From a virus, in IMG/VR virus record IMGVR_UViG_3300037189_003189, positions 1 to 25,251 of that record: 25,251 nucleotides of DNA; one strand, written 5' to 3'. A model generated the notes under the pieces. That model had not been told where the DNA came from. It saw only the letters and a program-made list of their open reading frames with translations, and did not search any database. The position numbers were made by a program, and so were the translations under genes. Positions 1,929 through 22,973 of this stretch are shown here, piece by piece (the stretch's first letter is position 1; every line of letters begins with the position of its first letter).

Positions 1929-1937
1929 TGATATAAT
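1929..1937 (+). promoter_or_regulatory. extended -10 promoter element for the connector genes
   Basis: TGATATAAT is a perfect TGN-TATAAT extended -10. With normal spacing the transcript would begin near 1944, at the 5' edge of the AAAGGAGGT site of the next gene, giving a leader of about 11 nt. No good -35 is visible. The same motif recurs at 5814, 22306 and 22762. Confidence 0.65.
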
Positions 1938-1954
1938 TGCAAAAGGAGGTTTTT

Positions 1955-2428
1955 ATGTCAGAGAATTTTTCAGAAATGACCGCAAGAGAATTAAAGGAGT
2001 ATGCCGAAATCAACGGTATTGATCTTGGGGAAGCAAAGACAAAGACAAGTATTCTTGCAGTTCTAACAGGGACAGAATCACAAATTGGTGAGGCATCAGA
2101 GGCAGTAGCAGAAGAGGATACAAAAGAAGTTACAGCAATTATTTCTATTATTCCAGAAAGAGTGCCACAATCTAATTTAGCAGAAAACAATGATAGTGTT
2201 ATAGCATCAAAGGCTGCAAGTAGAGCAAAGCCCACTGTTCAGGAAGAAAAGAAAGAAGTTTCAGATAAGGTTGCTATTTGGTCACCAAAGAGCATTTTTT
2301 GGGAAAACGTTGGTCGTTTGACGCCTGGGTATAACATTGTTTCTAAGGAGGCTTCCGAAAAGTGGCTTACTCGCAGGGATACTAGAATCGCAACCCCAGA
2401 AGAAGTTGCCACTTATTACGGAAAGTAA
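1955..2428 (+). CDS. HeH/SAP-like small head-region protein, function unknown
   Basis: The 157-residue protein starts at ATG 1955, with AAAGGAGGT at 1942-1950. An upstream in-frame TTG at 1937 overlaps the -10 element and is rejected. Residues about 7-37 (MTARELKEYAEINGIDLG followed by KTKTSILAVL) look like an HeH/LEM or SAP-type helix-extension-helix, which often binds DNA or protein. The middle is acidic and low in complexity. The last 50 residues form a compact aromatic domain (WSPKSIFWENVGRLTPGYNI, then SEKWLTRRDTRIATPEEVA). Actinophages often carry such a protein between the capsid and adaptor genes. A role in head completion is inferred from position only. Confidence 0.6.
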   Translation: MSENFSEMTARELKEYAEINGIDLGEAKTKTSILAVLTGTESQIGEASEAVAEEDTKEVTAIISIIPERVPQSNLAENNDSVIASKAASRAKPTVQEEKKEVSDKVAIWSPKSIFWENVGRLTPGYNIVSKEASEKWLTRRDTRIATPEEVATYYGK

Positions 2429-2430
2429 TA

Positions 2431-3372
2431 ATGGAGATTGCTAGATTAGAACCTTTTCCATTAGTTGCAAATTACGATGGCCTTTCAGCAGATGCTGACT
2501 ACACTGTGGTAATTGTTGACGATCATTCAATCTTAGTAGATACAATACAGGCAACAAGTGATGAAGACGGCAATCTAGCAATTACATTATCTAATTATTT
2601 TTCTAAGTATGACGATGAGTATAGACTAGAGATTTATGATGATTCTGATACGTTGGTGCTTTTTGATACCCTCACAATTATGCGCCCATATGTTATCCCT
2701 AGTTCATTGGCAGAAACTGAAGAAGAATTACAGGATATAACCGACTATGAAATGATTGCCCGTTCAATCATTAATTCAATTACGGGTGGCTTTTTATATC
2801 AATTGCAAAGGGTTGAGGCAGTAGGAACGGGAGCAGACTATCTTTCTCTTCCATATCGACTCAATAAAATTCTTCAGGTATATGAAAACAATGTTCTTGT
2901 ATACAATGCAGAAGATCCAACTTTTACAAATTTAAGAGATTATTTTATTACTGTTGATCAAGCAACAATCGCCGTTGTTCAATCAGGGGCTTGGGACAGA
3001 AAGCAGGGTAGATCAGTAAGACCACAGATCCCCTCATCAGACTCATTTACTATGTATAATACCAATGATTCACCAAATATCATTATGGATGCCGCTGGAA
3101 CCCCATCATTTCCAAATGGATGGGATTATCAAATTTATGCAGAAGTTGGATGGCCTATTATCCCTCACGACATTAAGCAGGCAGCGTCATTAATTATTAA
3201 TGATATTAAGTGCAACAATCTTCCATACGTTAATCAATATATTTCAGAATATAAGAGTGATCAGTTTAACATTAAGTTTGATGCATTAGCATTTAAGGAT
3301 ACTGGAAATAGAATTGCTGACAAGATCCTTTCTGCTTATGTTAGACCAATTTATCGTCTTGGGGTGTTGTAA
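2431..3372 (+). CDS. head-to-tail adaptor (connector) protein
   Basis: The 313-residue protein sits where the adaptor ring, which joins portal to stopper, is normally encoded. The N-terminal ~95 residues form a separate beta-rich domain (VANYDGLSADADYTVVIVDD). From about residue 100 the helical part begins (ITDYEMIARSIINSITGGF), a pattern seen in gp6/gp15-like adaptors. A helix-rich end follows (PHDIKQAASLIINDIKCNN). The ATG follows the previous stop after 2 nt and has only a weak site (GGAAAG) inside the upstream gene, so translation is probably coupled. Its stop overlaps the next start (TAATG). The assignment rests on gene order and secondary-structure style. Confidence 0.65.
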   Translation: MEIARLEPFPLVANYDGLSADADYTVVIVDDHSILVDTIQATSDEDGNLAITLSNYFSKYDDEYRLEIYDDSDTLVLFDTLTIMRPYVIPSSLAETEEELQDITDYEMIARSIINSITGGFLYQLQRVEAVGTGADYLSLPYRLNKILQVYENNVLVYNAEDPTFTNLRDYFITVDQATIAVVQSGAWDRKQGRSVRPQIPSSDSFTMYNTNDSPNIIMDAAGTPSFPNGWDYQIYAEVGWPIIPHDIKQAASLIINDIKCNNLPYVNQYISEYKSDQFNIKFDALAFKDTGNRIADKILSAYVRPIYRLGVL

Positions 3373-3851
3373 TGAGGCTAGCACCATGCTATAGTTTATT
3401 TTTCCCTATGCACGTTGATGTTTATTATGCATATGAAGAACAAGATCAATATGGAAAAATGACAAAACAATGGATGCTTGATAGAACAGAACACTGTTCA
3501 ATTTTCTCAATTAGCGACAAGGCAAATGATGAGAATTTTACTTTTGATTCTTCTAGAAGAGTTGGCAATGAATTTTTCAAATTAGAGACAATGCTATATG
3601 GTAGAACGCAAACAGATTTAAGAAAATCTTCAACTGGAGAATACTATCCAGTATCACATATTTTGGTTAAGAATATTCGTGGACTAGAAACAGATGATTC
3701 CTTTTTTATAGAAACAGTTTCTGGATATGAGGGAGAACCAACAATATATGAAATTAAAGCAAACCAGCCATTTGTCGGTCCATTCAACACTATTGAATAT
3801 TATAAGATTCAACTAGAACGCTCTGATATTCAGGGAGAACTAACAACATGA
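3372..3851 (+). CDS. head-to-tail stopper-like protein
   Basis: The 159-residue protein is beta-rich (HVDVYYAYEEQDQYGKMTK near the N-terminus, IYEIKANQPFVGPFNTIEYY near the end) and lies between adaptor and gp10-like genes, where the stopper that closes the head channel is usual. Its ATG shares a base with the preceding stop, and the next gene begins at an ATG overlapping its last bases. A second in-frame ATG at 3411 would remove 13 residues and begin right at the beta domain, so the exact start is open. Function comes from synteny. Confidence 0.55.
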   Translation: MRLAPCYSLFFPMHVDVYYAYEEQDQYGKMTKQWMLDRTEHCSIFSISDKANDENFTFDSSRRVGNEFFKLETMLYGRTQTDLRKSSTGEYYPVSHILVKNIRGLETDDSFFIETVSGYEGEPTIYEIKANQPFVGPFNTIEYYKIQLERSDIQGELTT

Positions 3852-4522
3852 TTTCTTCAACTGTAAACAGCACAAGCCTCAATCAAATTTTAAAAAATTC
3901 TATAAGTTATGGCAATGGGTTTATTGAAGGAGTAGAAATAGAAAGAATAGAATTTAATAGAATTCTAGGCGGGTATACGGTTGAAGCACTAGGAAAATAC
4001 ATTGATGCAAAGGCTAGAATGAATCCACAAAGCCTTCATCACGTTTATGAATGGGATGCTGTTGGCGAACAACCATCAAGGCTTTTCAGTTTTAACGTTG
4101 CCCCAACAAAAACTAATATCGTTATTACTGGAAAATTTCTTCCATCCAAAAGCATAAGCAGAAATTCAGAGGCTCCTTTTCCAGATAAAGCAAATGTTAT
4201 GGAAAATGCAATAGAAATAATCATTAGACCAAAGAATTCAGATGTTCTTGCTTTTGAGAATAATGGAGAAATGGTATTTACAAGAAATTCTATTTATGTA
4301 GACCATCCTGGTGGAGATGAAGTTGCTGGCAGTTTTGGCAATGCTGTTGATGATTTTTTTAATAACTATTTTAAAAATTCATTGTTAGAAGGATTCCTAG
4401 AACAACTTTCAAATGCCAAAGAGTTTGCAGAAAATTTTGCTGCTGGAACAAAAGGCGGAAAATCTGTTGGGGTAAAGGCAGGAAGAAAATATCTTAGTAT
4501 TTCTGGAGTTGTTATAGAATGA
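3848..4522 (+). CDS. HK97 gp10-like neck or tail-completion protein
   Basis: The 224-residue protein has the feature FNRILGGYTVEALGKYIDAK followed by ARMNPQSLHHVYEW, a helix and His/Tyr/Trp stretch typical of HK97 gp10-like proteins at the head-tail joint. A basic, Gly-rich end (AAGTKGGKSVGVKAGRKY) follows a long helix at about 155-200. It overlaps both neighbours by 4 nt (ATGA), so the connector genes are translated as a coupled set. The family call is moderately secure; the exact step is inferred. Confidence 0.6.
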   Translation: MISSTVNSTSLNQILKNSISYGNGFIEGVEIERIEFNRILGGYTVEALGKYIDAKARMNPQSLHHVYEWDAVGEQPSRLFSFNVAPTKTNIVITGKFLPSKSISRNSEAPFPDKANVMENAIEIIIRPKNSDVLAFENNGEMVFTRNSIYVDHPGGDEVAGSFGNAVDDFFNNYFKNSLLEGFLEQLSNAKEFAENFAAGTKGGKSVGVKAGRKYLSISGVVIE

Positions 4523-5013
4523 GTCTTTCTGATTTAACCTTACCAGTCTTGGCTGTTAATGGATATCTTTGGGATACTATTAAGCAAATTGAACCAACTT
4601 TTGAGGCTAGTTATGGCTCTACCGTTCCATTTTTCCCACTTAGCGATTCTGCAAGTGGGGCGGGATGGGAAAATAAGGCATACGTTATTTACGATAGAAT
4701 TATGAGAACCACACCAAATCCCTTCTATCCAATTAAAAAAGATCACATTATTTATAATGTTAAGGCAAAAGATATTGAGACATTGCAGTGGGGATTGGCT
4801 ATTCAGTATATTCTTGATAGATATGATGATGCTGCTCAAGATATAAATGAGTGGAACAGGAATGCTGGAAATCCTTATAAAGTATATTTCCATAATTTGA
4901 GGGTATACCAAGAAGATTCTTCAATAAATAGAAACTTCAGTACCAGACCATTCTATATTACTCAATTTATTGTTGAAGCAGAATATCATTTTACAGATTC
5001 CTTCTTTTCATAA
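4519..5013 (+). CDS. tail terminator-like protein
   Basis: The 164-residue protein is the last gene before the major tail protein, where the tail terminator ring (lambda gpU-like role, capping the tube at the head side) is expected. It contains the helix-strand pattern of such proteins: KAYVIYDRIMRTTPNPFYPI, then strands and a long helix (TLQWGLAIQYILDRYDDAAQ), and a C-terminal strand pair (RPFYITQFIVEAEYHF). The start overlaps the previous stop by ATGA. A tandem promoter-like element follows its stop. Confidence 0.6.
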   Translation: MSLSDLTLPVLAVNGYLWDTIKQIEPTFEASYGSTVPFFPLSDSASGAGWENKAYVIYDRIMRTTPNPFYPIKKDHIIYNVKAKDIETLQWGLAIQYILDRYDDAAQDINEWNRNAGNPYKVYFHNLRVYQEDSSINRNFSTRPFYITQFIVEAEYHFTDSFFS

Positions 5014-5021
5014 AAATACTA

Positions 5022-5033
5022 TATAATTATAAT
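5022..5033 (+). promoter_or_regulatory. tandem TATAAT elements before the major tail gene
   Basis: Two back-to-back TATAAT hexamers (5022-5027 and 5028-5033) begin 9 nt after the tail terminator stop. Either would give a leader of about 40-47 nt that carries GAAGAGGTG at 5065-5073, the site for the ATG at 5081. Neither has the TGN extension seen at the other elements. Confidence 0.5.
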
Positions 5034-5080
5034 GAGGAAACAAGCCGCCAAATCAAATAAAACAGAAGAGGTGAAAAAAT

Positions 5081-5758
5081 ATGGCATATACCCGTGGTGA
5101 TTCAAAGCAAATCATCGTTGGCGCAGCAGCATTGTTCGTCAGCGTTGATGCTGAATTTGATCCAACAAATGCAAGCCCAACCCTTCCAGATTTTGAAGGT
5201 GGAGTAAAGTACAACGAAACACTTAGCGATGCCACTACTGTTGTTCGCAACATTGGTTACACAAGCAATGGTCTTGAAATAATGTTCCAGCCAAATTTCG
5301 GTGAGGTAAACGTTGATCAGTTGCTAGACGTTGCAAAACTATACAAGCAAGCCATGAAGGTAGATCTTAAGACTTCTTTCGCAGAAGCCACACTTGAGAA
5401 CCTTCTCGTTGCTATTGCAGCATCATCAACAGATCTTACTTCAGACACACAACTTGACAACCCACTAGAAGACGGAACAATGGCTGACGCTAGCGTTCTT
5501 AATCTAAAGTCAGGTGAAATTGGAGAATGTCCAGTTGAGCGTGGACTCATTGCAGTAGGCCCAGGCACAGGAGATTGTGCTCCTGGCAATTACATTGAGC
5601 GTATCTATGTTGCTTACCGTGCATTGTCAATCGACAATGTTACAGTAAATGCAAAGCGTGATGCAGCCTCTATGTTTGACGTTTCATTCCGTTTGCTTCC
5701 AGCAAACAACGGCTCATACGGCAAGATTGTTGATCGCACAGTTGCAGCAGCATCATAA
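5081..5758 (+). CDS. major tail protein (tail tube subunit)
   Basis: The 225-residue protein follows the tail terminator and precedes the frameshifted chaperones, the fixed place of the tube subunit in siphoviruses. It is beta-rich with a variable middle: VGAAALFVSVDAEFDP at the N-terminus, GGVKYNETLSDATTVVRNIG, and a C-terminal strand set (YVAYRALSIDNVTVNAKRD, MFDVSFRLLPANNGSYGKIV) in the style of tube proteins. Like the capsid protein it prefers CGT/CGC arginine and C-ending codons, consistent with very high expression. It has its own promoter-like element upstream and a terminator downstream, forming a single-gene unit. Confidence 0.85.
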   Translation: MAYTRGDSKQIIVGAAALFVSVDAEFDPTNASPTLPDFEGGVKYNETLSDATTVVRNIGYTSNGLEIMFQPNFGEVNVDQLLDVAKLYKQAMKVDLKTSFAEATLENLLVAIAASSTDLTSDTQLDNPLEDGTMADASVLNLKSGEIGECPVERGLIAVGPGTGDCAPGNYIERIYVAYRALSIDNVTVNAKRDAASMFDVSFRLLPANNGSYGKIVDRTVAAAS

Positions 5759-5783
5759 TTTAAAAATAACTTAATAGTCGATG

Positions 5784-5808
5784 GCCCCTCTGTCTTCAGG
5801 GGGGCTTT
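5784..5808 (+). terminator. rho-independent terminator after the major tail gene
   Basis: GCCCCTCT (5784-5791) pairs with AGGGGGGC (5798-5805), eight pairs with one G-T wobble, around loop GTCTTC, followed by TTT. A promoter-like element starts 6 nt later. Confidence 0.8.
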
Positions 5809-5813
5809 CGTCA

Positions 5814-5822
5814 TGATATAAT
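5814..5822 (+). promoter_or_regulatory. extended -10 promoter element before the tail chaperone genes
   Basis: TGATATAAT, identical to the element at 1929, lies right after the terminator. A start near 5829 gives a 24-nt leader holding GAAAGGA (5841-5847) before the ATG at 5853. Confidence 0.65.
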
Positions 5823-5852
5823 TCTTTTCATAATAGTTATGAAAGGACTATA

Positions 5853-6188
5853 ATGCCAACTTCAGTATATGAAACAGTAGAAATTGAACTTCTTGATGGG
5901 TCTAAAGTAAAAATGCGTCCATTAAAGATTTCACTTCTTAGAGAATTTATGAAGAAGTTTGAAAGCATTCAGCAAGTTGCTGAAGATAACGATAAGTCAA
6001 TGGATATCCTTATTGACTGCGTTCAGATTGCCATGAAGCAATATGCTCCAGATTTTGCGGTAGATCGTGAAAAATTGGAAGACAATATTGACCTTCCAAG
6101 CGTCTATAAGGTAATTGAAGCAGCGTCTGGAATTAAGTTCGATGATTCGGGAAACGCTCTGGCGACGGGGATTCTTGGTCAGAACTAG
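5853..6188 (+). CDS. tail assembly chaperone, short form (lambda gpG role)
   Basis: The 111-residue product is made when ribosomes stay in the first frame. It lies between major tail and tape measure genes. Residues 1-40 form a small strand-helix domain (YETVEIELLDGSKVKMRPLK), followed by helices (MDILIDCVQIAMKQYAPDFA). Proteins of this class coat the tape measure during tail assembly and are not kept in the virion. GAAAGGA sits 5 nt before the start. A slippery GGGAAAC at 6149-6155 diverts some ribosomes into the -1 frame before the TAG at 6186. Confidence 0.85.
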   Translation: MPTSVYETVEIELLDGSKVKMRPLKISLLREFMKKFESIQQVAEDNDKSMDILIDCVQIAMKQYAPDFAVDREKLEDNIDLPSVYKVIEAASGIKFDDSGNALATGILGQN

Positions 6189-6544
6189 ACCTAGTAAGGT
6201 TAGAGTCTGAGTTATTCCTTTTAGGAATATGGAAAGATTATGAAGAATTAGAAGATAACCTTTCTATGCCAGAACTTACTGCAATCCTCGTCGCTAAACG
6301 TGAATCAGATAGTCAAGAAAAGAAATTCCTCGCTGCATTGCAGGGAGTGGATCTTGATAAAGAATCTAGTGCATCTTCTAATGCTTGGGAAGATATGAAG
6401 GCTCGTGTATTTAGTGGTGGCAAGGCAAAAAATTCTAATGACGTACTATCTTTGTCTGGAATAAATGCAAAAAATGCTGGCTTTGGAATTGGTGATGGAC
6501 TTGAATATACAGATGCCACCCATGCCAAAAATCCCTTTGATTAG
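5853..6544 (+). CDS. tail assembly chaperone, long frameshifted form (lambda gpGT role), join(5853..6155,6155..6544)
   Basis: The -1 frame is open from 6146 to the TAG at 6542-6544 and continues past the short-form stop. A slip at GGGAAAC joins 101 residues of the first frame to 129 residues of the second, about 230 in all. The extension begins RSGDGDSWSELDLVRLESEL and continues FLLGIWKDYEELEDNLSMPE, a pattern I recognise from tail chaperone extensions of actinophages. The first ATG in the second frame (6266) has no ribosome site and lies inside this conserved stretch, so an independent start is unlikely. The long form is expected to bridge tape measure and tube subunits. The reading is shifted back by one base, as in lambda G-T. 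Confidence 0.85.
6149..6155 (+). promoter_or_regulatory. -1 ribosomal frameshift site GGGAAAC
   Basis: The heptamer reads G GGA AAC in the incoming frame and so fits X XXY YYZ exactly; it differs from the lambda G-T site (GGGAAAG) only in the last base. A possible 6-bp stem (TCTGGC at 6158-6163 with GTCAGA at 6178-6183, one wobble) follows very closely and may assist, though its spacing is short. Confidence 0.85.
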
Positions 6545-6546
6545 TG

Positions 6547-6552
6547 TATAAT
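6547..6552 (+). promoter_or_regulatory. TATAAT promoter element before the tape measure gene
   Basis: TATAAT is preceded directly by TG (no spacer base) and starts 3 nt after the chaperone stop. A start near 6559 would begin the mRNA at the AGAGGTG ribosome site (6558-6564) of the tape measure GTG at 6572. Confidence 0.5.
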
Positions 6553-6571
6553 TAAATAGAGGTGCTAATCT

Positions 6572-9500
6572 GTGGCTGATGTAAATGCAAATATCAATAT
6601 AGACATTAATTCTAGTGACGCTATTGCGTCATTAAAAAGTTTGCAAGCAAGAATAACAGAATTTAATAATGCTGTTATCAGAAGTAACGCTTCAGCCGTT
6701 GCCGCACAAAAAAGTCTATTAAGCACCTTAAATGCTCAAATTGGTGCAGCAGGACAATTCTCCACATCAATGGTAAATGTTGAATCAAGCGTAAATAGAC
6801 TTGGCAAGTCCATTGATAAAAATAAACTTTCTCTTGGAGAATATTTTAAATATGGTGTTGCATCAACAAGAACCTTTGGCAGATTTTTTGCCAAAGAACA
6901 CAATGATGTAATGGATCTTGCCATAGATAGAGTAAAAAGACTTCAGACACAGTATATAGCACTTGAAAAAACTCAAAATGGTGTGACCAAGGCTATGGCT
7001 ATAAGGCCAATGCACTTGTTTAATTCTGATGCAGCAGTGGCAATTCAAAGACAACAACTTTTTAATAAACTGCTTCACGATGGAAGCACAAGTTTAATTA
7101 ATTTTGGTAAGAATACCCAGTGGGCTGGTCGTCAGTTGATGGTTGGGTTTAGCGTACCGCTGACAGCATTTGGAATAGCGGCAGGCAAGACTTTTATGGA
7201 TCTTGACAAGCAGGCAAGAGATTTTAAAAGAGTGTATGGAGATATTTTTACTCCACCAGAAGAAGTAAATCAAAATCTTAAAGCCATTCAAGATCTTGGA
7301 AAAGAATATACTAAGTATGGCGTTGCTCTTTCTGACACTATGAATATTGGTGCAACTGCCGCTGCCGCTGGTATGAGAAATGAAAAACTTACTAAAAATA
7401 CTGAGCAGGCATTAAGATTGGCAACAGTTGGACAAATTGATTATCAACAGGCTTTAACAACAACCATTACCTTACAAAATGCTTTTAAGATAAGCAATGA
7501 AGACCTTGCTCCAACTGTTGACTTTATTGGTGCTGTAGCAAACCAAACTGTTCTTAGCGTAGACGACCTTACTGCGGCTATTCCTCGCGTTGCCCCTGTC
7601 ATTCAGGGCTTGGGTGGTGATGTAAAGGATCTAGCAGTCATGTTGGTTGCTATGAAAGAGGGTGGTGTATCAGCAGAACAAGGCGCTAACGCATTAAAGT
7701 CTGGCTTGGCATCACTCATTAATCCAACAAAGGCTGCAATAAAAACAACAGAACAGTTTGGAATAAATATCAAGGGCATTATTCAAGCAAATAGGGGCGA
7801 CCTTATGGGAACGGTGGAGGCTTTTGGTGCAGCATTGTCTAAACTTGATCAATTTAGTCGTCAACAAGTTCTTGAAAAAGTTTTTGGAAAATACCAGTTT
7901 GCTCGTATTGGTGCTTTGTTTGACAACATTAATAATAAAACTGGTCAAGTAAAACAGTCAATGGATTTACTTGGAATGAGTACAGAAGATCTTGCGTCAA
8001 TGTCTGACAAATCTTTGAATCAAATTGCCGAATCTACAACTGCTAAATTCCAGTCAGCAGTAGAGAAGTTAAAAATTTCTATTGCTCCAATAGGAGAGAT
8101 ATTTCTTAAGGTTGCTACGCCAATTCTTGAATTTGCAACAAAACTTCTTGATAAGTTCAATGAACTTAGTCCTGGAGTAAAACAATTTATTACAATACTT
8201 ACTATCGGGCTTGGCGTAGTTGTTCCAGCAGTCATTATGCTTGTCGGTCTTTTTGCTAACTTTGCAGGTAACATGATAAAAGGCTTATCATTAGTAAACA
8301 CACTCTTTAATAGAATAAAGAGTGGTGGATCTGTATTTAAGTATATGAGTGGAGAAGAACTTGATGCTGCCGCAGCAGCCTCTTCTTTAGAAGGAAAAAC
8401 AAATAGGCTAACCTCCGCACTTAATGTTCAAAGAGAAGCGGTAATGTCCCTCTCTGGTGCTTATGGATCATATGTTAGGGCTGCTAATTCAGCAGCAGGA
8501 AGTTTGCCACAAGGATTTAGATCACCAAGAAGAATGGCAACTGGAGGTTTTGTTGCAGGAAGTGGAAATCAAGATTCAGAACCAGCACTTCTAATGCCAG
8601 GCGAATTCGTTGTAAACAAGCCTGCTGCACAAAAATATGGACCAATTCTTGGAGCAATGAATTCTGGAACAATTAAAGGATATTCTGATGGAACTACTCA
8701 GAGAACACATATAACAGGCGCTAGGTCCTTAACGGTTTCTGAAGCACTTGAAGGTCCAACAACTCAATCTTTAAAAACAGTATTGTCTATTATTGAAAAA
8801 GTTGAATCTGCTTTAGGAAGAAGTGTTAGTAGTATTGCGGCTGTTAGCAATTTAATTGTTGAAATGCCAAAAGAATTTAATTCATTAATGAAATCTCAAA
8901 AAATAAATGATGGAAAAATAACTGGTGGAATGTCTGGGAAACAATTCGCACAACAATTTTCTTCAATAGGAATAGAAAAATGGAAAACAACAGTTGGAAT
9001 AACAAAACAAAATTTTGATGACCTTGCACCACATTTAGCAATTCTTGATAGAAATATCGCAAATATTTCAAAAGATATGGAAAGCGTGGGAGATCTTAAT
9101 ATTGATGAAATTACAAGAAAAGCATTTGAAGCACTTCCCGCACAATCTAGAAAAATGCTTTCAGAAATAGAAGCACTTTCTAATCAATATCATAATTTAA
9201 GAATAACCGTTAATCAATTAGATGCTCTTACCAATGAAGAAAAACAAAAATTAGCAGCGGCTGGCGTAACATTCGCAAGAGGAAGTGATGCAGATAGACA
9301 ATACATTACCGTCCCAGGGTTAGGCACAGCATCAGTAAGATCAAGACAAGAAACTAGAAGCGTTGGGCCAACATATAGAAGGGCAAGATTGACTGGTCTT
9401 GGATTGGGACAAACGCTAGATTCTTCTGCAAGAGAAGCGGTTGGTGCAGCAAGTCCAGCAAAAAGGGGAGAACAATTAACAGAAGATTATGCTGAAGGAA

Positions 9501-13594: not shown

Positions 13595-14216
13595 TCCAAA
13601 CAACCCCACTAGCACCTCCTCCTATATTTCTGGTAGAAAGCGTTATGGTAGACCACAGGCAATGTTGTGGGCAGATAATGCAGGAAATTATTCTAATAAT
13701 ATTAGATTCCCATTAGGGATGGAAAAAGAAGATTTCATCATTCTTTCAGATCACAATAGACAACCTATTAATATTACTCAGCAAAGAATAGAATCACGAC
13801 AAAGAATGATTAACGGAACAATGCGCTCTTATCATATTGCTGATAAGATTGTTATTGGTTGTGGCTGGCAGATGCTTCCTTCACGATCATATTCCACCAA
13901 TATTAATTTTAATTCCTCTGGCAAGGCAGTAATGTCTGATGCTGATTATGAAAATACCGCTGATGGTGGGGCAGGCGGGGTAGAGATTCTTGACTGGTAT
14001 GAAAACCATTCTGGTCCATTTTATGTATACCTTGCATATGATAAATACAATAACTTTACAACAGGAGATCAGATTGACGAAAATTCCTTTAATCATTTAT
14101 CAATATACAATGATGTAAGGCATATGTATTTTTCCTCATTTGATTATTCCATTCAAAAAAGAGGAAATACCAACTTTGATTATTGGACAATAAACTTTTC
14201 TTTGGAAGAAGTATAA
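13584..14216 (+). CDS. minor tail protein in the distal-tail (Dit) position
   Basis: The 210-residue protein begins at GTG 13584, inside the end of the tape measure gene, with AGGAGA at 13574-13579. Immediately after a tape measure, the distal tail protein that forms the hub between tube and tip is usual. It has many aromatic strands and a motif block DHNRQPINITQQRIESRQRM followed by INGTMRSYHIADK, then a Gly-rich loop (TADGGAGGVEILDWYENHSG). The last part (YFSSFDYSIQKRGNTNFDYW) is a strand pair. The stop shares one base with the next ATG (TAATG). The Dit role is inferred from place; a virion protein is likely. Confidence 0.65.
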   Translation: MDINPNNPTSTSSYISGRKRYGRPQAMLWADNAGNYSNNIRFPLGMEKEDFIILSDHNRQPINITQQRIESRQRMINGTMRSYHIADKIVIGCGWQMLPSRSYSTNINFNSSGKAVMSDADYENTADGGAGGVEILDWYENHSGPFYVYLAYDKYNNFTTGDQIDENSFNHLSIYNDVRHMYFSSFDYSIQKRGNTNFDYWTINFSLEEV

Positions 14217-17200
14217 TGTTTCAAAATGATATTCTTGAAAATGAACTAAAGTATTCTCATACCCTTCAAAATAATCAAAAAATATGGGTGGAATGGAATC
14301 TTAATCAATCAGAAAATATCAGCAGGGTCGGCAATTATCGCTATCGTCCAGCAACGAATGATACTAAGTTTAACGTAATAAAATCATCTTATGACGAAAC
14401 AGATAGTGGCTCCTATTACACTGGAGCAACCGATTCAGATATTGTTATTAATGCTGGATTTGATGATGCAGACAATCCCTCCTACTTCATCTCTCCCAAA
14501 AAAAAGATAAACCTTCTTTATTCTTTGGAAGACTGTTTTAAGCAGAATAGGCCAAGATCAGGAATAAATAAATTATTATATTTAGGAAGATCTCAATATA
14601 TTGATAGCATAAATGTATTTAGAGAAACAAAGTCTGCCACCATAACCAATGCTGTTTCTACAGAAGGATACATTATTTTTACTGCTATAAATAATTTTTT
14701 AGTAGGAGATTATGTAAAAATAACTGGTGTTGCTCCTTCGTCATATGATCAAGTGAATCCAGTAAAAATTGTTGCTGTAACAGATACATCTTTTTCTATC
14801 TTAGGGAATAATGCCAATGCCTATCAAAATGGCGGATTAGCAGAGATAGGATATCTTGGAACCAACAATGTTGCCAGAAGACCACGATATTATATGGCAT
14901 CAAGATATGATGACTTTAAATATTGGACCTCTTATAGAAAAGAAGTAGAGCGATCCTTCGTTGATAGCAAAGAAGTTTTCACAAATAATGAATTTGGAAT
15001 ATCCTTAAATAAAAACACTGGAACATCAAATAAATCTTATTATATCTACGATGCGGCACCATTTGTTGTATACAATGAAAAAATACCAACAAATAAAATT
15101 GTAATTAAAATGCAAACAAATGTTGGAGAAATAAATAATGGACCATATAGATTTGGAGCAAGATCTGCTTCCGCGCAAGACCCCTTCTATGGAGAAAAAA
15201 ATAAAACTGTTCCAAAGAAGTGGCAAATTCAAACATTAAATGAAAGCAATCAGTGGCAAACTATTATTTCTTTTGGAGAGGATTCTGTCAGAGATGACGG
15301 AAGTGCAATAATTGGATCTGATGGTCAAGTAGAAGTTGAATACGGTCTAACAATTCCTTGGCAATATTATAACTATTTTACACTTGTAGGAGAGATAACT
15401 TCTTTATCTCAAAGACCAGAGTATGCTCCGTATGGGTATGCCTACTTATATAAGCAATCATCTGATGACAAAGGTGTTTTGTATGTGTATGACGGAGGAA
15501 CTTGGGATGCAATAACCCCAGAATATACATGGCGTATAGCAGAACTTGATGTTACCAGCAATAGATCTGTTATTAAGAAGTTATCTGATCCAGATTATTA
15601 TGTTGAGAATTCTATAAAACATTTTAGAGAATTTGAGTTTATTAAAGGTATAAGAGTTGTAGTTGACACAATGAATAAGGTTGATTGCACATTCGATCTT
15701 ATAGAAATGTCTCCAAGATTAATTGGAGATATAACTAAGAAGGTTGTATCTTTTTCAGTAAAAAAGACTCTTGCTGATTTAGCAAACTACTCAATGCCTA
15801 TGGGAAATTTAATAGCATCTACAGGAAGTTTATCAATATTTGATGACGATTTATCCTTTAACGACAACAATATTTTTGATGATGAAACAAATGTGGGAAG
15901 CATCATTAGCAAATATTCAAATACCAGAATAAAATTCTTATTCTATGACGTAACTACAATCAAAGAAATAGAGGATGGGGTGGAATATTTCCTTGACTAT
16001 TACATCCCAATAAAGACATTATATTCAGAAAAGATTCCTCAAGTAAGCGATACCGCTGCATCAATATCCCTAGAACTTAGAGATCTATTTTTCTTTTTTG
16101 AATCAAAAAAATCTCCAGAACTTCTTTTAACAAATGTTTCTTTAAGTTATGCAATAACTGTTTTATTAGACAGCATTGGCTTTAGCAATTATGTATTTAA
16201 AAGAACTGAAGAAGATAATGAATTAATAATTCCATTTTTTTTCGTTGGTCCAAATCAAAATATTGCAGAAACTTTGCAACAACTTGCCATATCTTCACAA
16301 AGTGCAATGTTTTTTGATGAATACAACAATCTAATAGTTATGTCAAAAAATTATATTTTGCCATCTGAAGAGGCTAGGCCAACAGATCTAACTCTATATG
16401 GACAAGAAACATCGGTAGGAGATAAAGTTGCCTTGCCAAATATTTTAAATGTTGCTTCTGAGGATAAACTCGTATATAATGGTGGAGAAATAAATTACAC
16501 AACTAGATATATTCAAAAGTCAATAGGATCTATTGCTCAGGCACCCTACATAGATGAATATAAGACTTATATCTATAAGCCAGTTTTATTGTGGGAGGTC
16601 GCGGGGCAAGAAAAGGTAAAAACTGTTAATGAATCAGCAACACGATCTTCTGGGTATTCATTATCGGCTATGCCATTAAAAACAACATTAAGCGCAAGCA
16701 CTCCTAGTATAGTTAATGGGAATCTTATAAATAATATTATAGACTTTGGGGAAAGCGTATATTGGCTTGGGAACTATTCTGGATATTTTTATGCTAATAG
16801 CGAAATAATTAGATATGATGCCGTGGAATATTCTATTGCTGGGGTGGGCAATATCTGGATTAATAATAATCAACAATATCAAAAATATTTTAGTAAATTA
16901 AAATTTAATGGAAAAATGTACCCAACGGGAAGGGTTAGGATATATACAGATGTTCAGGGAACTACTGTAAAAGAACATGGTCGTGGTCAATTCTCAACAA
17001 ACATAGTAGAGCATCAAGCAGGTATTGGCGTCGATTCATCTTGGGTTAGCCCAGATAATTTAAGAGGGTCAATTCAAAATGCACAAGAATACCTATTTAA
17101 TACTAATAAGATAATTGCTTATAATGATGAAAATCTTGTTCATACGATGGGATCACTCAGTTTAAATATTGGCACACCAGAACAACAATATGCAGATTCT

Positions 17201-19684
17201 CCATACAGTGCTGGAAATATTAGATCTATTAATGGGCAAAGATATACTGCGCTATCTTATGCAAAAAAGTCTTCTCGCAACGGCATAATCAAAAATTTTA
17301 TGGCAAATACAAATATTACAGAAAATGATGTTAATTATTATAAGAGCGCCCTATCTGGATCAGTTCAATCATCTGCTTTAATATTTGACGGACCAGACCT
17401 ACCCTCAGAAATTGATCCTGCAAACTTTATTTCTTATACATATAAGCAACTTGATAAGCCATATAAGCATTTTGGAACAAGGATGAGAGTTATTGGAGAG
17501 GTTCAATCTAAAAATAATAGTGGGCAAACTCCACAAGGGGCATTCAATCCTTACCCATCAAATCAAATAATTTCTTCAGATCCAAATAAGCAGACTTTTA
17601 TTTCAGGTGGTAGTGGTGGAATGGCATTTAATTTAAATAAAGATACTAACATTGGATACTACTACGAGATAATGGCTTTGTCAGAAAACAATATAACAAA
17701 CTTTAAAAATAATTCTAATGCAGATTCTTACAGTATTGCAAAGGTTGCAAATGGAATTAGTTGTACAGCGGATACAGTCACTGTTACTCTTACATCTCAG
17801 CATGATTTTGAAATAGGAACACAGATTTCCGTTACTGGAGCCATAGATGACAGTAGGAAAACTGCTCCAGCAACATCATTGAATGGTCAGTTTACTGTAA
17901 CAGAAATTGATAATACTAGGAAAAAGTTTAAATTTAAAATGGCTGGAATAAGTTCTCCTGCAAATATTACTGATTTTTATAGAACTGGTGAGGGTACTTC
18001 TTGGACAGTTACATATATTGCAAACAATAGTTTTAGGGCTGGACAACTTGTAAATATTTCTGGATTATCTCCTTCTGGATACAATATTTCTAATGCCGTT
18101 ATTTCTTCTGCAAACGAAAATCAATTTACTGTGCAAACGACTTCAGATCTTGGATCACCATCAGATAAGGTTGGCACCGCCACCTATGTTGCCCTTACAA
18201 CAAGTTCCGCTAGCGGTGGCATAGTATCAAAGTCACTTGATGAAGATACACAAATATCAAATGTATTTTTTTATAAAGTTAATTTTGGATTTAATAAATC
18301 AGAAATTGTTAAAAAATACAGTCGAATTGTGACAGAAATAGTAGATGGAAATCCAGTTACATATAACCTTGCCACGCTAACAACTTTAAGAAATCATTAT
18401 TTTAGTGCTGGAGAAAAAATAAGTGTCACTGATGTAGAAAGTATTTTTAATGGCGTATACGATATATTTTCCACAACTAGCAATACCATATCATATAAAC
18501 TTACTTCTCTAAGTGAAGTTAGTGAAACAGAAGTAAGTCCAGTAGGAAATGTTACTGGAATTGATGCCATAGCCATACCTCAAATTTTATGGAGAGGTTT
18601 AACTGATATCATTGTTGATGATGGAAAGTTTACTGGTCAATCAAGGATGGTTGCAGGAACAGGTAAAACAGTTTACGATCTTTCCGCAGAATATGTAAAC
18701 ATAGCATCCAAAAGAAGATTTTATTTATACCTAAACGATAAACAAATAGCAATTGTAGATGATTCAGAACCACTTCCAGAATATAGCAACATTGCCTTAT
18801 TTGTTCGTGGATCTTCAAGATGCATGTTTGAAAATGTTTATGCCCTATCTGATAATTTTGCTGAGAATGTAGCAAAGGGAGTACAACTTCCAGTATCTCA
18901 AAATAATATTTCAGCAGAAAACGAGGTAATTAGAAATTATGCACTCAACGGAATTATTCAAAGCACATATCTCAAAGGAATAAGTTCTGAATCAGATCCT
19001 CAATATGCGTTGTATTATGATGAATTTGGAACCATCATGCGAGAAGCAGCATACTTTAATATCAGATATGATAGAGCATATCCAGCCCTTTATGCAAAAA
19101 TTGCAGATGTACTGAATAACGTCAAGGCTTACACAGTTTCAGGATTCCTTGCTGGATCTTATGGAGCAGAGTTTCTTATATTCAATATTGCTGATAAAAA
19201 TATTAATCTAGATGATACCAGCGGAAACTATTTAAGAATTTTAGGAATTGCATTTACACAAAATACTACCCACTCTCTCAAAGTTGATGATTTCTTTAAG
19301 AAGAATAGTAATTTTACTAATGCCATTTACTCTGGATATAATAATGCTGAGGAATATCAAAAACTTTATAACGATGTTCTTAATAGTAGAAATAAGTACG
19401 GAAGAAATGATTTTTCTATAGAGGCAGAATATGTGCAAACAGATGATGCAGCAGAATCAATGATGGATTGGATTATTAAAAAGGTTATTACACCAAGAAA
19501 AACCGTGGGGGTAACAGCATTTGGAGTTCCACACCTTCAACTTGGAGATATTGTCAATATCAATTACAAGAGTAGCGATGTAGACATTGTTGCCAATAGT
19601 TCAACAAGATTTGCAGTATATAATATAGAGCATCAGAAAAGTTCTGGTTCAATTCAAACTACATTATATTTAGCGGAGGTTTAA
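14216..19684 (+). CDS. very large minor tail protein (tail hub/tip, Tal-like position)
   Basis: The 1822-residue protein starts at ATG 14216, overlapping the previous stop and preceded by GGAAG; an upstream TTG at 14183 is in frame but lies in the preceding gene. The N-terminal third is rich in aromatic strands. A small beta module (strand, FxxGxxxxVxG, loop, strand) appears at about 138-212 and again at about 1173-1245, 1262-1325 and 1377-1448. Residues about 1450-1560 (RRFYLYLNDKQIAIVDDSEP, ALFVRGSSRCMFENVYALSD) resemble a concanavalin/LamG-type sugar-binding sandwich. The C-terminus (GVPHLQLGDIVNINYKS, FAVYNIEHQKSSGSIQTTLY) resembles the closing domain of tail hub proteins. Together this suggests a hub with surface-binding domains on it. 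Arginine is mostly AGA. No enzyme motif was recognised. Confidence 0.75.
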   Translation: MFQNDILENELKYSHTLQNNQKIWVEWNLNQSENISRVGNYRYRPATNDTKFNVIKSSYDETDSGSYYTGATDSDIVINAGFDDADNPSYFISPKKKINLLYSLEDCFKQNRPRSGINKLLYLGRSQYIDSINVFRETKSATITNAVSTEGYIIFTAINNFLVGDYVKITGVAPSSYDQVNPVKIVAVTDTSFSILGNNANAYQNGGLAEIGYLGTNNVARRPRYYMASRYDDFKYWTSYRKEVERSFVDSKEVFTNNEFGISLNKNTGTSNKSYYIYDAAPFVVYNEKIPTNKIVIKMQTNVGEINNGPYRFGARSASAQDPFYGEKNKTVPKKWQIQTLNESNQWQTIISFGEDSVRDDGSAIIGSDGQVEVEYGLTIPWQYYNYFTLVGEITSLSQRPEYAPYGYAYLYKQSSDDKGVLYVYDGGTWDAITPEYTWRIAELDVTSNRSVIKKLSDPDYYVENSIKHFREFEFIKGIRVVVDTMNKVDCTFDLIEMSPRLIGDITKKVVSFSVKKTLADLANYSMPMGNLIASTGSLSIFDDDLSFNDNNIFDDETNVGSIISKYSNTRIKFLFYDVTTIKEIEDGVEYFLDYYIPIKTLYSEKIPQVSDTAASISLELRDLFFFFESKKSPELLLTNVSLSYAITVLLDSIGFSNYVFKRTEEDNELIIPFFFVGPNQNIAETLQQLAISSQSAMFFDEYNNLIVMSKNYILPSEEARPTDLTLYGQETSVGDKVALPNILNVASEDKLVYNGGEINYTTRYIQKSIGSIAQAPYIDEYKTYIYKPVLLWEVAGQEKVKTVNESATRSSGYSLSAMPLKTTLSASTPSIVNGNLINNIIDFGESVYWLGNYSGYFYANSEIIRYDAVEYSIAGVGNIWINNNQQYQKYFSKLKFNGKMYPTGRVRIYTDVQGTTVKEHGRGQFSTNIVEHQAGIGVDSSWVSPDNLRGSIQNAQEYLFNTNKIIAYNDENLVHTMGSLSLNIGTPEQQYADSPYSAGNIRSINGQRYTALSYAKKSSRNGIIKNFMANTNITENDVNYYKSALSGSVQSSALIFDGPDLPSEIDPANFISYTYKQLDKPYKHFGTRMRVIGEVQSKNNSGQTPQGAFNPYPSNQIISSDPNKQTFISGGSGGMAFNLNKDTNIGYYYEIMALSENNITNFKNNSNADSYSIAKVANGISCTADTVTVTLTSQHDFEIGTQISVTGAIDDSRKTAPATSLNGQFTVTEIDNTRKKFKFKMAGISSPANITDFYRTGEGTSWTVTYIANNSFRAGQLVNISGLSPSGYNISNAVISSANENQFTVQTTSDLGSPSDKVGTATYVALTTSSASGGIVSKSLDEDTQISNVFFYKVNFGFNKSEIVKKYSRIVTEIVDGNPVTYNLATLTTLRNHYFSAGEKISVTDVESIFNGVYDIFSTTSNTISYKLTSLSEVSETEVSPVGNVTGIDAIAIPQILWRGLTDIIVDDGKFTGQSRMVAGTGKTVYDLSAEYVNIASKRRFYLYLNDKQIAIVDDSEPLPEYSNIALFVRGSSRCMFENVYALSDNFAENVAKGVQLPVSQNNISAENEVIRNYALNGIIQSTYLKGISSESDPQYALYYDEFGTIMREAAYFNIRYDRAYPALYAKIADVLNNVKAYTVSGFLAGSYGAEFLIFNIADKNINLDDTSGNYLRILGIAFTQNTTHSLKVDDFFKKNSNFTNAIYSGYNNAEEYQKLYNDVLNSRNKYGRNDFSIEAEYVQTDDAAESMMDWIIKKVITPRKTVGVTAFGVPHLQLGDIVNINYKSSDVDIVANSSTRFAVYNIEHQKSSGSIQTTLYLAEV

Positions 19685-19685
19685 G

Positions 19686-20423
19686 ATGCCTTGGGTAAAT
19701 TATACTAGTGCATTTGGCACATTTAGTTCTTGGGTAGACGACCCAGCACCAGTAATTGCTCCAGAAATGTCTGACAATGTTGTAATTTCTAACAGTCCCG
19801 CCCCGCCAGTAGCGCCGCCACCAAGCGTTTCTAACTTGCCAAATGCAATATATATTCCATCCCCAGCGAGTCCCCCATCGAAAGAAACGCCAACTGGAGG
19901 TACAACGCCAACTGGAGGAAGTCCAAGTCCATCATCCACTTCGTCTCCTGCACCGTCTCCCACTAATGCAGCGCCAGTATCCGCTACTCCAGCACTTCCC
20001 ACATTTACTCCAATGCCTTCAAATAAAAATTTCAAGGTTGCGCCATCAGATATTATTCAATTTGACGAAAACAATATAGAGATACAACTAATAACAAATC
20101 TTCTTTTTGAAGATGTGGGGGCAGTTGAGTTATCCGACATGTCTCGCTCAGATCTTATAGATGGACAACAGGTAATTTATAGCCCCATTACAAATCTTCC
20201 TGAATTAAAAAGAGATTTTGATCCAAACAAGATTATTTCCAATATTCCTATGGTAGATTATTTTTCAAGATTCTTGATTGACTTATTATCAAGAGGTATG
20301 TATGAGCCATATTTTGATGATGAGGGTAATCTTGTTATAGAAATTGATAAGGTTCTTGATGATGAAAAAATTGAGGCAGAAATTTTATCAAATGGTACAA
20401 TTGAAATTATAGGAGAAATATGA
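19686..20423 (+). CDS. tail-associated protein with Pro/Ser/Thr-rich linker
   Basis: The 245-residue protein starts 1 nt after the previous stop with a strong GCGGAGGT site. Residues 1-30 are aromatic (WVNYTSAFGTFSSWVDDPAP). Residues about 38-115 are an extended Pro/Ser/Thr/Ala linker with two PTGG units made by a 15-bp direct repeat. The C-terminal 125 residues are a compact acidic domain (IIQFDENNIEIQLITNLLFE, then YFSRFLIDLLSRGMYEPYFD) ending in paired strands (LVIEIDKVLDDEKIEAEIL). It lies between hub and fiber genes and shares ATGA with the next. A spacer or tip-attachment protein is plausible, but I do not recognise the family with certainty. Confidence 0.6.
   Translation: MPWVNYTSAFGTFSSWVDDPAPVIAPEMSDNVVISNSPAPPVAPPPSVSNLPNAIYIPSPASPPSKETPTGGTTPTGGSPSPSSTSSPAPSPTNAAPVSATPALPTFTPMPSNKNFKVAPSDIIQFDENNIEIQLITNLLFEDVGAVELSDMSRSDLIDGQQVIYSPITNLPELKRDFDPNKIISNIPMVDYFSRFLIDLLSRGMYEPYFDDEGNLVIEIDKVLDDEKIEAEILSNGTIEIIGEI
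19886..19918 (+). repeat. 15-bp tandem direct repeat in the proline-rich linker
   Basis: AACGCCAACTGGAGG occurs at 19886-19900 and again at 19904-19918, an 18-bp period that keeps the frame and encodes two PTGG units. Confidence 0.9.
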
Positions 20424-21814
20424 TTACCAATGATGGCAAAGAGATTATTGCAAAGTTTCTTTTAGGTCAGGTGCCATCCTTTGCTACCCATCTTTCTATT
20501 GGCTGTGGGGCCACTCCGTTGTTGGGAACAGATGAGTATCCATCAAACTTACATGCAAAACAAAGAATGGACTTTGAAATGTTGAGAGTCCCTATTTCTT
20601 CTAAAGGATTTGTTGATGCGTCTGTTACATATACCGTTGAAAATAAACAAATTGATTCAAATGTTGCAATTCTTACTACGTCAACAGATCACGATATTGT
20701 GGCGGGAGAGATAATTGTTGTCTCAGGAATTGATTCAACATTTAACGGAGAATATAGAGTTTCAGCAGTAACGACTGATACGATTGAATATCAAAGAATA
20801 AATGCGAACGTTAACTCAGCGCCATCATCTGGATCTATTGTTGTAATTAGAACAAAAGTTTCTATGACAGCAGAAATAGTAAAGGAGAATAGATATGCTG
20901 CCACAGAAATTGGAATATGGTCTTTTGAAAATAACACATTGGCATCACAATATGATAGTAGGATGATTTTTAATTTTTCTCAATCTTGGCAAAAAAATGA
21001 TGGCTTTATCTCATCTGTTCCTCCCTTTAATACAGATCTCAGTTTACTTGCTAATGGGGCAGAGCACGATGCTGAACTGGATATACAAGAAACTTCTGAT
21101 GTATTTTTTGCAAAAACAAGCGATACCGTATTTTCTAATAATCTTCGTCAGACAAGAAAAGAAGGTCCTAGATATCTTGACAAGACATTGATGGTTAGGG
21201 GAGATTTATCTAATATTGATATTAGCGATGGGATAGACGGAGACTGGGTTTCTTCAGGTGCATATGTTGAACTTGAAAATATTAACTTTGATATATCTGG
21301 AAATAATAATTCAGATATATTGAAACTGGCATTCTCTTTGGTAGATCAAACATCAACTGGTATAGAGTCAGTTCCAGATTTAAGAATTATGATGGAATTC
21401 TATAAGACTAAGGCAAATCTATCTGGAAACTACGCAAAGGTCCAAATATATATTCCTAAATCAGTTTTAACTGCAAGTAGATATCACGTTTCATCATGGA
21501 CAAAAAATCAAAATGTTGATTATAGCAATGAGTCAGCCAGTTCATTATTGCCATACACAAAGTTCCGCACCTCAACAGACTTTAACTCATCAGAAACTCG
21601 CTTATGCAGAATCTTTGTTGAAGCAATTGCCGATGGAGTTGCATCTGATCAGCACTATGTTGCATTTGATGGATTTAGAATTGATAATACAACAGATAAT
21701 CCGATATACAAAATGTCTGGATACTCTATTGTAAAATACGATGGTACTCCAGCAATCATTGCTCCTAATGCAAACAACTATGTAGATTTTAGATTTTCAC
21801 TCGGGATATCATAA
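20420..21814 (+). CDS. minor tail / tail fiber protein
   Basis: The 464-residue protein starts in an ATGA overlap, with GGAGA just upstream. The N-terminus (NDGKEIIAKFLLGQVPSFAT, HLSIGCGATPL) resembles attachment domains of tail fibers. Residues about 69-145 hold another copy of the beta module seen in the large tail protein (HDIVAGEIIVVSGIDSTFNG). Next comes ENRYAATEIGIWSFENNTLA, a common fiber motif, and a C-terminal beta sandwich (about 270-464; VSSGAYVELENINFDISGN, QHYVAFDGFRIDN) that looks like a carbohydrate-binding jelly roll. This suggests receptor contact. The stop shares one base with the next start. Confidence 0.7.
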   Translation: MITNDGKEIIAKFLLGQVPSFATHLSIGCGATPLLGTDEYPSNLHAKQRMDFEMLRVPISSKGFVDASVTYTVENKQIDSNVAILTTSTDHDIVAGEIIVVSGIDSTFNGEYRVSAVTTDTIEYQRINANVNSAPSSGSIVVIRTKVSMTAEIVKENRYAATEIGIWSFENNTLASQYDSRMIFNFSQSWQKNDGFISSVPPFNTDLSLLANGAEHDAELDIQETSDVFFAKTSDTVFSNNLRQTRKEGPRYLDKTLMVRGDLSNIDISDGIDGDWVSSGAYVELENINFDISGNNNSDILKLAFSLVDQTSTGIESVPDLRIMMEFYKTKANLSGNYAKVQIYIPKSVLTASRYHVSSWTKNQNVDYSNESASSLLPYTKFRTSTDFNSSETRLCRIFVEAIADGVASDQHYVAFDGFRIDNTTDNPIYKMSGYSIVKYDGTPAIIAPNANNYVDFRFSLGIS

Positions 21815-22305
21815 TGTCAAAAAAGATATCCATTCCATTTAATACTTTGCCATGTCCCAATAGCGATGATTCTTTATATTATTTAAGATATAGATTAATA
21901 AAGAATTCAAATAATCAATTTTCTGAGTGGAGTAATATTTATGCTGTGGGAGGTAATATATCTTACGATGTTACAGGAGGAAATCTTACAGGATCTTGGT
22001 CTGGAGATCTATTGTCAATTTCTTGGAATTATGCCAATGTTATTAAAGATGGAGATTTTGATAATCCTATAACAAAATTAGATAATTATGATCTTTGGAT
22101 AAGATGGGGAACGACTGCTTATGCAGATCCTGATTTGGGTAACTGGGAAAGATTGGCAAGAATTTCTGGCACATCTGCAAATATTACAATTCCAACAGGT
22201 AAAACTTATTTTAGTATAGAGGTTTATAGGCCAGGCACCCCAGTAATTCGTAGTTCTACAAATAATTTCTTGTTGTATTCATCATATGATGAGCCATTGT
22301 CCTAG
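21814..22305 (+). CDS. fibronectin-III-like minor tail protein
   Basis: The 163-residue protein is coupled to the previous gene by TAATG. The start of the chain (SDDSLYYLRYRLIKNSNNQF, SEWSNIY) and the second half (LDNYDLWIRWGTTAYAD, SANITIPTGKTYFSIEVYRP) both have the strand order and Tyr/Trp core of fibronectin type III domains, so two such domains are likely. Such domains are common on phage tails and help weak binding to cell-surface sugars. The position among tail tip genes supports a virion protein. A -10 element begins 1 nt after its stop codon. Confidence 0.65.
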   Translation: MSKKISIPFNTLPCPNSDDSLYYLRYRLIKNSNNQFSEWSNIYAVGGNISYDVTGGNLTGSWSGDLLSISWNYANVIKDGDFDNPITKLDNYDLWIRWGTTAYADPDLGNWERLARISGTSANITIPTGKTYFSIEVYRPGTPVIRSSTNNFLLYSSYDEPLS

Positions 22306-22314
22306 TGCTATAAT
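22306..22314 (+). promoter_or_regulatory. extended -10 element placed for a leaderless mRNA
   Basis: TGCTATAAT directly follows the TAG of the previous gene. Counting the last T as -7 puts +1 at 22321, the A of the next ATG. There is no ribosome site between. Confidence 0.7.
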
Positions 22315-22320
22315 TAACTT

Positions 22321-22764
22321 ATGGGAAAAATATCTTTGCCAGATCGTGGGCAACCGCTAGATGTTACATATTTATATCAAATTGCTAATGCAATTAACGA
22401 CGTTTCAAATGAAATTTCTTCAGCAACATATAACTACACAACAGTAAAAACTAGAGATGCTGGAAATCAAACTATTCAAACTCGTGCAACAAGAATAGTT
22501 GCTGGATTCGTTGATGTTGTTTTAAATGAATCTGTAACAGAAGGTCAGACTAAGCCATTTACATTCTCATATCCTTCAGATTTTAAGTATCCGCCCATTG
22601 CAACTGCAACAGTTGTTAATACAGGCACAAGTGATATTGGAGACAATGTTACCGTTGTTATTAGATCAATAACAACATCAGCAGTAGAAGGAGTTATTAA
22701 ATTCAATTCTGCTGGACAGGTTACAACAACAGTAAACATCACTGCTATTGGCATTCCTACATGA
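22321..22764 (+). CDS. small trimer-like tail tip protein with possible lectin fold, leaderless
   Basis: The 147-residue protein has an N-terminal helix likely to oligomerise (PLDVTYLYQIANAINDVSNE), then a linker and a C-terminal all-beta domain (KPFTFSYPSDFKYPPIATAT, VNTGTSDIGDNVTVVIRSIT, ending TVNITAIGIP). The F-x-F..P....P.ata pattern with a final strand ending in AIG is reminiscent of H-type lectins and small receptor-binding knobs; that is a resemblance, not a proof. No Shine-Dalgarno lies upstream; the promoter is only 6 nt away, so the mRNA is probably leaderless. As the last gene of the tail group it is a candidate receptor-binding or decoration protein. Confidence 0.6.
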   Translation: MGKISLPDRGQPLDVTYLYQIANAINDVSNEISSATYNYTTVKTRDAGNQTIQTRATRIVAGFVDVVLNESVTEGQTKPFTFSYPSDFKYPPIATATVVNTGTSDIGDNVTVVIRSITTSAVEGVIKFNSAGQVTTTVNITAIGIPT

Positions 22765-22770
22765 TATAAT
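22762..22770 (+). promoter_or_regulatory. extended -10 element overlapping a stop codon, near-leaderless mRNA
   Basis: TGATATAAT uses the TGA stop of the tail tip gene as its TGN extension. The expected start is 22777-22779 and the next ATG is at 22779, with no ribosome site. Confidence 0.7.
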
Positions 22771-22778
22771 TCACTGTT

Positions 22779-22973
22779 ATGTTATTCTGTAAGCGTTGCG
22801 GCGGCAGAATGTTTGTAGATCGTGCCTACAATGCATTAAATCATATAGAAGTGTTTTGCGTGTGCTGTGGGCACCGAAAATTTCACCATAACTTTGGATC
22901 GGATGACAAGGAAGCGCAATGGCTACTGTTGATGGAGAAAATAAGGGCCAAGATTACAATATCGTCCCTATAA
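22779..22973 (+). CDS. small zinc-ribbon protein, leaderless
   Basis: The 64-residue protein has paired cysteines C4/C7 and C27/C30 (with C29 between) in FCKRCGGRMF and FCVCCGHRKF, a four-Cys zinc ribbon. Such short proteins are frequent in phages at module borders and usually bind nucleic acid or protein; no specific function can be named. The ATG follows a -10 element by 8 nt with no Shine-Dalgarno. The end overlaps the next gene by 55 nt in another frame, with AAGGAAG inside this gene serving the next start. Confidence 0.65.
   Translation: MLFCKRCGGRMFVDRAYNALNHIEVFCVCCGHRKFHHNFGSDDKEAQWLLLMEKIRAKITISSL

Follow-up and report, generated by a model that had tools for sequence, protein, structure and literature searches.

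The 25,251-base virus record that makes up the window analysed here is a fragment and lacks most non-structural genes. It carries a siphovirus head–tail block, including the end of the capsid protease, the major capsid protein (MCP), the major tail protein, the tape measure and tail genes, followed by a small CxxC protein, an HTH protein and a DnaB-like helicase. Its nearest named relatives are the Stanwilliamsviridae, phages of Streptomyces, with an MCP ~44% identical over 78% of the query. WhiB genes were found in 12 of 14 long relatives, and a contig of an Actinomycetota MAG carries a related capsid gene. Together with the Streptomyces hosts of the nearest named phages, these findings point to an actinobacterial host.

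Promoter-like elements in the gaps of the structural block

The hexamer TATAAT lies in gaps between the structural genes at 1932, 5022 (with a further copy at 5028), 5817, 6547, 22309 and 22765. All TATAATT elements listed in a preliminary description of this DNA were recovered, with TATAAT in the gap at every position it named. Its count of eight gaps of at least 14 nt, six with an element, also holds: we counted nine, and the ninth (6189–6265) is probably coding. In the tail-chaperone region (5853–6544), the second reading frame opens at 6146, before the first one ends at its stop (6188). A programmed frameshift is therefore likely, and what looks like a gap probably lies in coding sequence across it.

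All six elements are on the + strand. After the major capsid gene, the extended −10 TGATATAAT (1929–1937) precedes the next ATG at 1955, which follows AAGGAGG (1943–1949). The major tail gene (start 5081) has a −10 TATAAT without TG (5022–5027). TGATATAAT recurs before the tail-chaperone gene (5814–5822; start 5853), and TGTATAAT (6545–6552) lies upstream of the GTG (6572) that starts the tape measure gene. At the end of the tail module, TGCTATAAT (22306–22314) is 6 nt 5′ of the ATG of gene 22321 (22321–22764, + strand), and another TGATATAAT (22762–22770) is 8 nt 5′ of the ATG of the small CxxC protein gene (22779–22973, + strand). The TGA stop of gene 22321 (22762–22764) also supplies the TG for the next extended −10, an overlap kept in many relatives.

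The TGN reported often to precede these hexamers is present in four of the six elements, with TG one base 5′ of a TATAAT-type −10; the element at 5022 has no TG, and at 6545–6552 TG is joined directly, with no spacer base. The tandem TATAAT described at 5022 is reduced to its first copy. The second (5028–5033) is probably coincidental, as relatives lose it and keep the TATAAT that lies 6–7 nt before a conserved GAGGAAAC. A TATAAT overlapping the ATG at 5853 was likewise rejected as coincidental.

Over the whole window TATAAT occurs at chance frequency (36 observed, 34.5 expected), so the signal is one of placement. All six forward copies of TATAATT are in gaps (chance P ≤ 5e-5). The + strand holds four copies of TGNTATAAT (1929, 5814, 22306 and 22762), each lying inside a gap or bordering one, while the single copy on the − strand is inside a gene. 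Of the nine gaps that are 14 nt or longer, six contain TATAAT, where a first-order Markov model built on the gaps predicts 0.8 (P = 5e-5) and random placement 0.39, with 0 of 20,000 trials reaching six. A generic consensus scan returned promoter-like sites at chance level only and so does not settle the question. The ordinary whole-window frequency of TATAAT is what would be expected if the elements were chance products of AT-rich intergenic DNA. That origin is refuted by their concentration in gaps and their conservation across relatives, with strand asymmetry and fixed distances to start codons (below) also against it, and we give it next to no weight.

Conservation, start-codon spacing and probable transcription units

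Relatives were fetched by capsid protein (80) and by DnaB helicase (80), the DnaB scan being used instead of an HTH-gene scan of viral contigs that gave four relatives only. Start codons were placed by tblastn, and upstream TATAAT was scored within 70 nt of the start. The relatives compared have MCPs 72–92% identical and are not phylogenetically independent. Among them the element is kept in the named gaps. The post-capsid gap has TGNTATA[AC]T in all 58 distinct orthologous sequences. Upstream of the major tail gene, TATAAT is found in 32 of 44 orthologous regions, nearly always 52–59 nt before the start, and several of the others have TATACT. For the tail-chaperone gene, 25 of 40 orthologous regions contain TATAAT, and the count for TGNTATAAT is likewise 25 of 40. 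For the tape measure gene, TATAAT lies 18–21 nt before the start in no more than 13 of 36 relatives, which indicates that some of the elements are not essential. Gene 22321 has TATAAT in 47 of 51 relatives, with a spacing to the start of 6 nt at 23 sites and of 14–18 nt, mostly with a Shine–Dalgarno (SD) sequence, at 22. Gene 22779 has it in 38 of 46, with a spacing of 8–9 nt at 30 sites.

Upstream TATAAT is nearly absent elsewhere (MCP 1/54, g4 1/57, g7 0/42, g10 0/39, g16 0/32, g19 1/53 and g23 0/53). Among the remaining genes for which 18 or more orthologues were available, it occurs in 0–6 of these, the highest being 20420 (6/46), 3848 (5/49) and 23477 (5/54). Summed over 24 long relatives, TGNTATAAT occurs 319 times on the structural strand and 46 times on the other; a reversed-pattern control gave ~49 per strand, placing the non-structural strand at background. 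In ten long relatives, with genes called by a simple in-house ORF caller, and the window, 178 of 202 sites lie outside coding cores.

The claim that these elements lack a −35 is upheld across these 178 sites. Information between −45 and −10 is at most 0.12 bit per position, and the best TTGACA match at spacers of 15–19 scores a mean of 3.01 of 6, equal to controls (2.82 and 2.98). In the same set, an ATG peak starts at +6 after the −10. An ATG peak at 6–7 nt would fit the start site ~7 nt 3′ of the −10 that is expected of extended −10 promoters. Extended −10 promoters function without −35 contact (PMC7403470).

We then considered 186 sites in relatives with TGN-TATA[AC]T and a gene start within 70 nt. 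The first in-frame start is exactly 6 nt after the −10 at 52 of them, the commonest distance, and 7 nt after it at 11; a second group lies at 15–17 nt. An SD is seen in 65 of 105 sites with a spacing of at least 13 nt and in 0 of 69 at 5–10 nt, the latter being partly forced, with the −10 occupying that space. In the window, genes 22321 and 22779 have TATAAT 6 and 8 nt before the ATG, respectively, without an SD, and look leaderless from their sequence. Counted from the start of the −10, the start codon is 12 bp away for 22321 and 14 bp for 22779. Leaderless genes are common in Actinobacteria, where TANNNT precedes the start codon by ~12 bp (PMC3160421). Gene 22321 has orthologues of both kinds, some leaderless and others SD-led.

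The major tail gene differs, with a predicted mRNA 5′ end at GAGGAAAC (5034–5041, + strand). GAGGAA is present here in 44 of 44 relatives, mostly 6–7 nt after the −10, and GAGGAAGTGC occupies the corresponding place in Faust and Mildred21. GAGGAAAC is a possible leader element of the major tail mRNA. In some relatives (L034, L038, L044, L049 and L063), but not in the window, an inverted repeat AAAAGG(G)C...GCC(C)TTTT (AAAGGGC...GCCCTTT) flanks the major-tail −10, nesting the promoter in the loop of a possible terminator.

Two of the gaps also contain a stable, terminator-like hairpin upstream of the promoter, both on the + strand. One lies 3′ of the major capsid gene (1885–1923; 15 pairs in the minimum free energy structure, −23.1 kcal/mol, z = −6.2), and a hairpin precedes the promoter in 51 of 58 distinct post-capsid gaps of relatives. 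The other is 3′ of the major tail gene (5779–5811; −23.2 kcal/mol, z = −5.7), and 20 of 38 relatives have a hairpin 5′ of this promoter. The U-tracts of both are weak, and termination may therefore be partial. The pairing of promoter and upstream hairpin in two gaps supports the view that the structural genes form several transcription units. The preliminary description had proposed such a division, and conservation of the gap elements and their near absence upstream of other genes add to its support. The leaderless arrangement, the hairpins and the second promoter class described below go beyond that description.

Taken together, we consider the six elements to be phage extended −10 promoters, TGN-TATA[A/C]T with no −35, which the host's own polymerase reads through its primary sigma factor and which serve several transcription units (probability roughly 0.92). 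The actinobacterial polymerase would recognize each promoter, and the promoters would divide the virion genes into units, the upstream unit in two gaps ending at a terminator-like hairpin just before the next promoter. For genes 22321 and 22779, transcription would begin at or within ~3 bases of the ATG. Other leaders would hold little beyond the SD, the exception being the major tail gene, with a predicted ~50-nt leader starting with the conserved GAGGAAAC. We infer that transcription starts from these elements and that they presumably act late.

Two promoter classes and their possible control

Most long relatives carry a block of genes on the opposite strand, and this block is dominated by TTGACA-N17/18-TANNNT, most often with TAGGAT. 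Counted per gene, the structural strand of the relatives has 161 extended −10 and 33 TTGACA promoters, and the other strand 9 and 34 (Fisher OR 18.4, P = 1.1e-14); the window holds the extended −10 class only. The 33 structural-strand genes with TTGACA promoters mean that separation of the classes is incomplete. Forward TTGACA sites number 45 in Faust and 40 in Mildred21, mostly at 64–121 kb, apart from the structural genes. A TTGACA promoter also precedes orthologues of gene 23477 in many relatives (e.g. L094, L097, L107 and L128), several with an operator-like palindrome in the spacer; the window is without it.

A uniform motif without a −35 could also be the mark of an RNA polymerase or sigma factor specific to TGN-TATAAT and encoded by the phage itself. 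However, the 14 long relatives gave no Sigma70_r2 match and no Sigma70_r4 match above cut-off, and no T7-like RNA polymerase was matched, in a search whose control also matched nowhere. The motif itself is the primary-sigma consensus. With no phage sigma factor found and a motif of this kind, host sigma-A is the likelier reader, and a phage-encoded one is very improbable.

Within the reading of the elements as host-read extended −10 promoters, two sub-hypotheses concern how the classes would be used. Under the first, both are ordinary sigma-A promoters throughout infection, with no switch in specificity. The phage would place strong −10 promoters at genes whose output must be high, and what sets the classes apart would be promoter strength or control by repressors, not timing. 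The lack of a detected phage sigma factor in the 14 long relatives fits this, as do the independence of extended −10 promoters from −35 contact (PMC7403470), the frequency of leaderless genes in Actinobacteria (PMC3160421) and the presence of both classes on the structural strand. The strong class separation (OR 18, P = 1e-14), also seen in the Streptomyces phages, suggests more than strength, and we regard this sub-hypothesis as evenly poised.

Under the second, a phage protein would displace or cover sigma region 4 during infection. Host and early promoters that need a −35 would fall silent, and the extended −10 class would be spared and favoured over TTGACA promoters. The opposite design of the two classes speaks for such a factor, and gp39 and AsiA are precedents for phage factors acting on sigma region 4 (PMC7403470). 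A WhiB-like protein is a candidate: Wbl proteins bind SigA region 4 (PMC6282962), and the WhiB of 12 of the 14 relatives has four Cys and mostly GVWGG. Against this, known Wbl proteins such as WhiB7 are activators near the −35, and WhiB was not found in two of the 14 relatives, which are fragmentary. By analogy with gp39 this mechanism is possible, although on balance doubtful. Among the WhiB-like genes read (G006, G010, G011 and others), some have GVHGG in place of GVWGG, and nine of ten copies are on the structural strand.

A broader and still more speculative proposal is that an actinobacterial phage lineage, ranging from aquatic low-GC members to Streptomyces phages, has divided its whole genome between two promoter classes, one −35-dependent, the other −35-independent and often leaderless. 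The switch between them would come from a phage protein, perhaps a WhiB-like one, through remodelling of region 4 of sigma-A. Taken singly, the elements are of familiar types, and their conserved layout is a testable gene-control model for abundant aquatic actinophages. It predicts leaderless virion genes and raises the question of whether a phage factor turns off −35-dependent initiation. The class split makes a switch in promoter recognition between two gene sets testable, and cultured Streptomyces phages with the same layout permit such tests now. We found nothing direct in the literature on transcription maps of these phages, which does not show that none has been published.

Comparison with known promoters and phages

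Extended −10 promoters of sigma70/sigma-A share with the window elements a TG one base before TATAAT and do not need a −35. The phage promoters differ in forming a conserved set in the structural-gene gaps of one lineage, often leaderless. Actinobacterial leaderless genes have the identical spacing (TATAAT, 6 nt, ATG) and no SD, whereas the phage consensus is sharper and includes TG, and orthologous phage genes switch between the leaderless and SD-led states.

Among the Stanwilliamsviridae, Faust and Mildred21 are related to this virus and have a syntenic capsid/tail block; homologous capsid, HTH and DnaB genes would be further marks of the family. Their post-capsid gaps hold a hairpin, terminator-like in Faust, and a −10, which is TGCTATAAT in Faust and TGCTACAAT in Mildred21; the latter also has TGATATAAT after the tail gene. 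Both have TATAAT- or TATACT-type −10s 6–7 nt before several ATGs, the leaderless spacing, and the TTGACA class elsewhere in the genome. Besides the MCP divergence given above, their −10s are more variable (TATACT, TACAAT and TAAACT).

Thermus phage P23-45, in its middle/late promoters, likewise uses −10/−35 promoters and extended −10 promoters for different gene sets; there, sigma region 4 is displaced by gp39, and promoters of the extended −10 type remain active (PMC7403470). The host phylum differs, and the counterpart of gp39 in the phages studied here would be WhiB, as a candidate factor.
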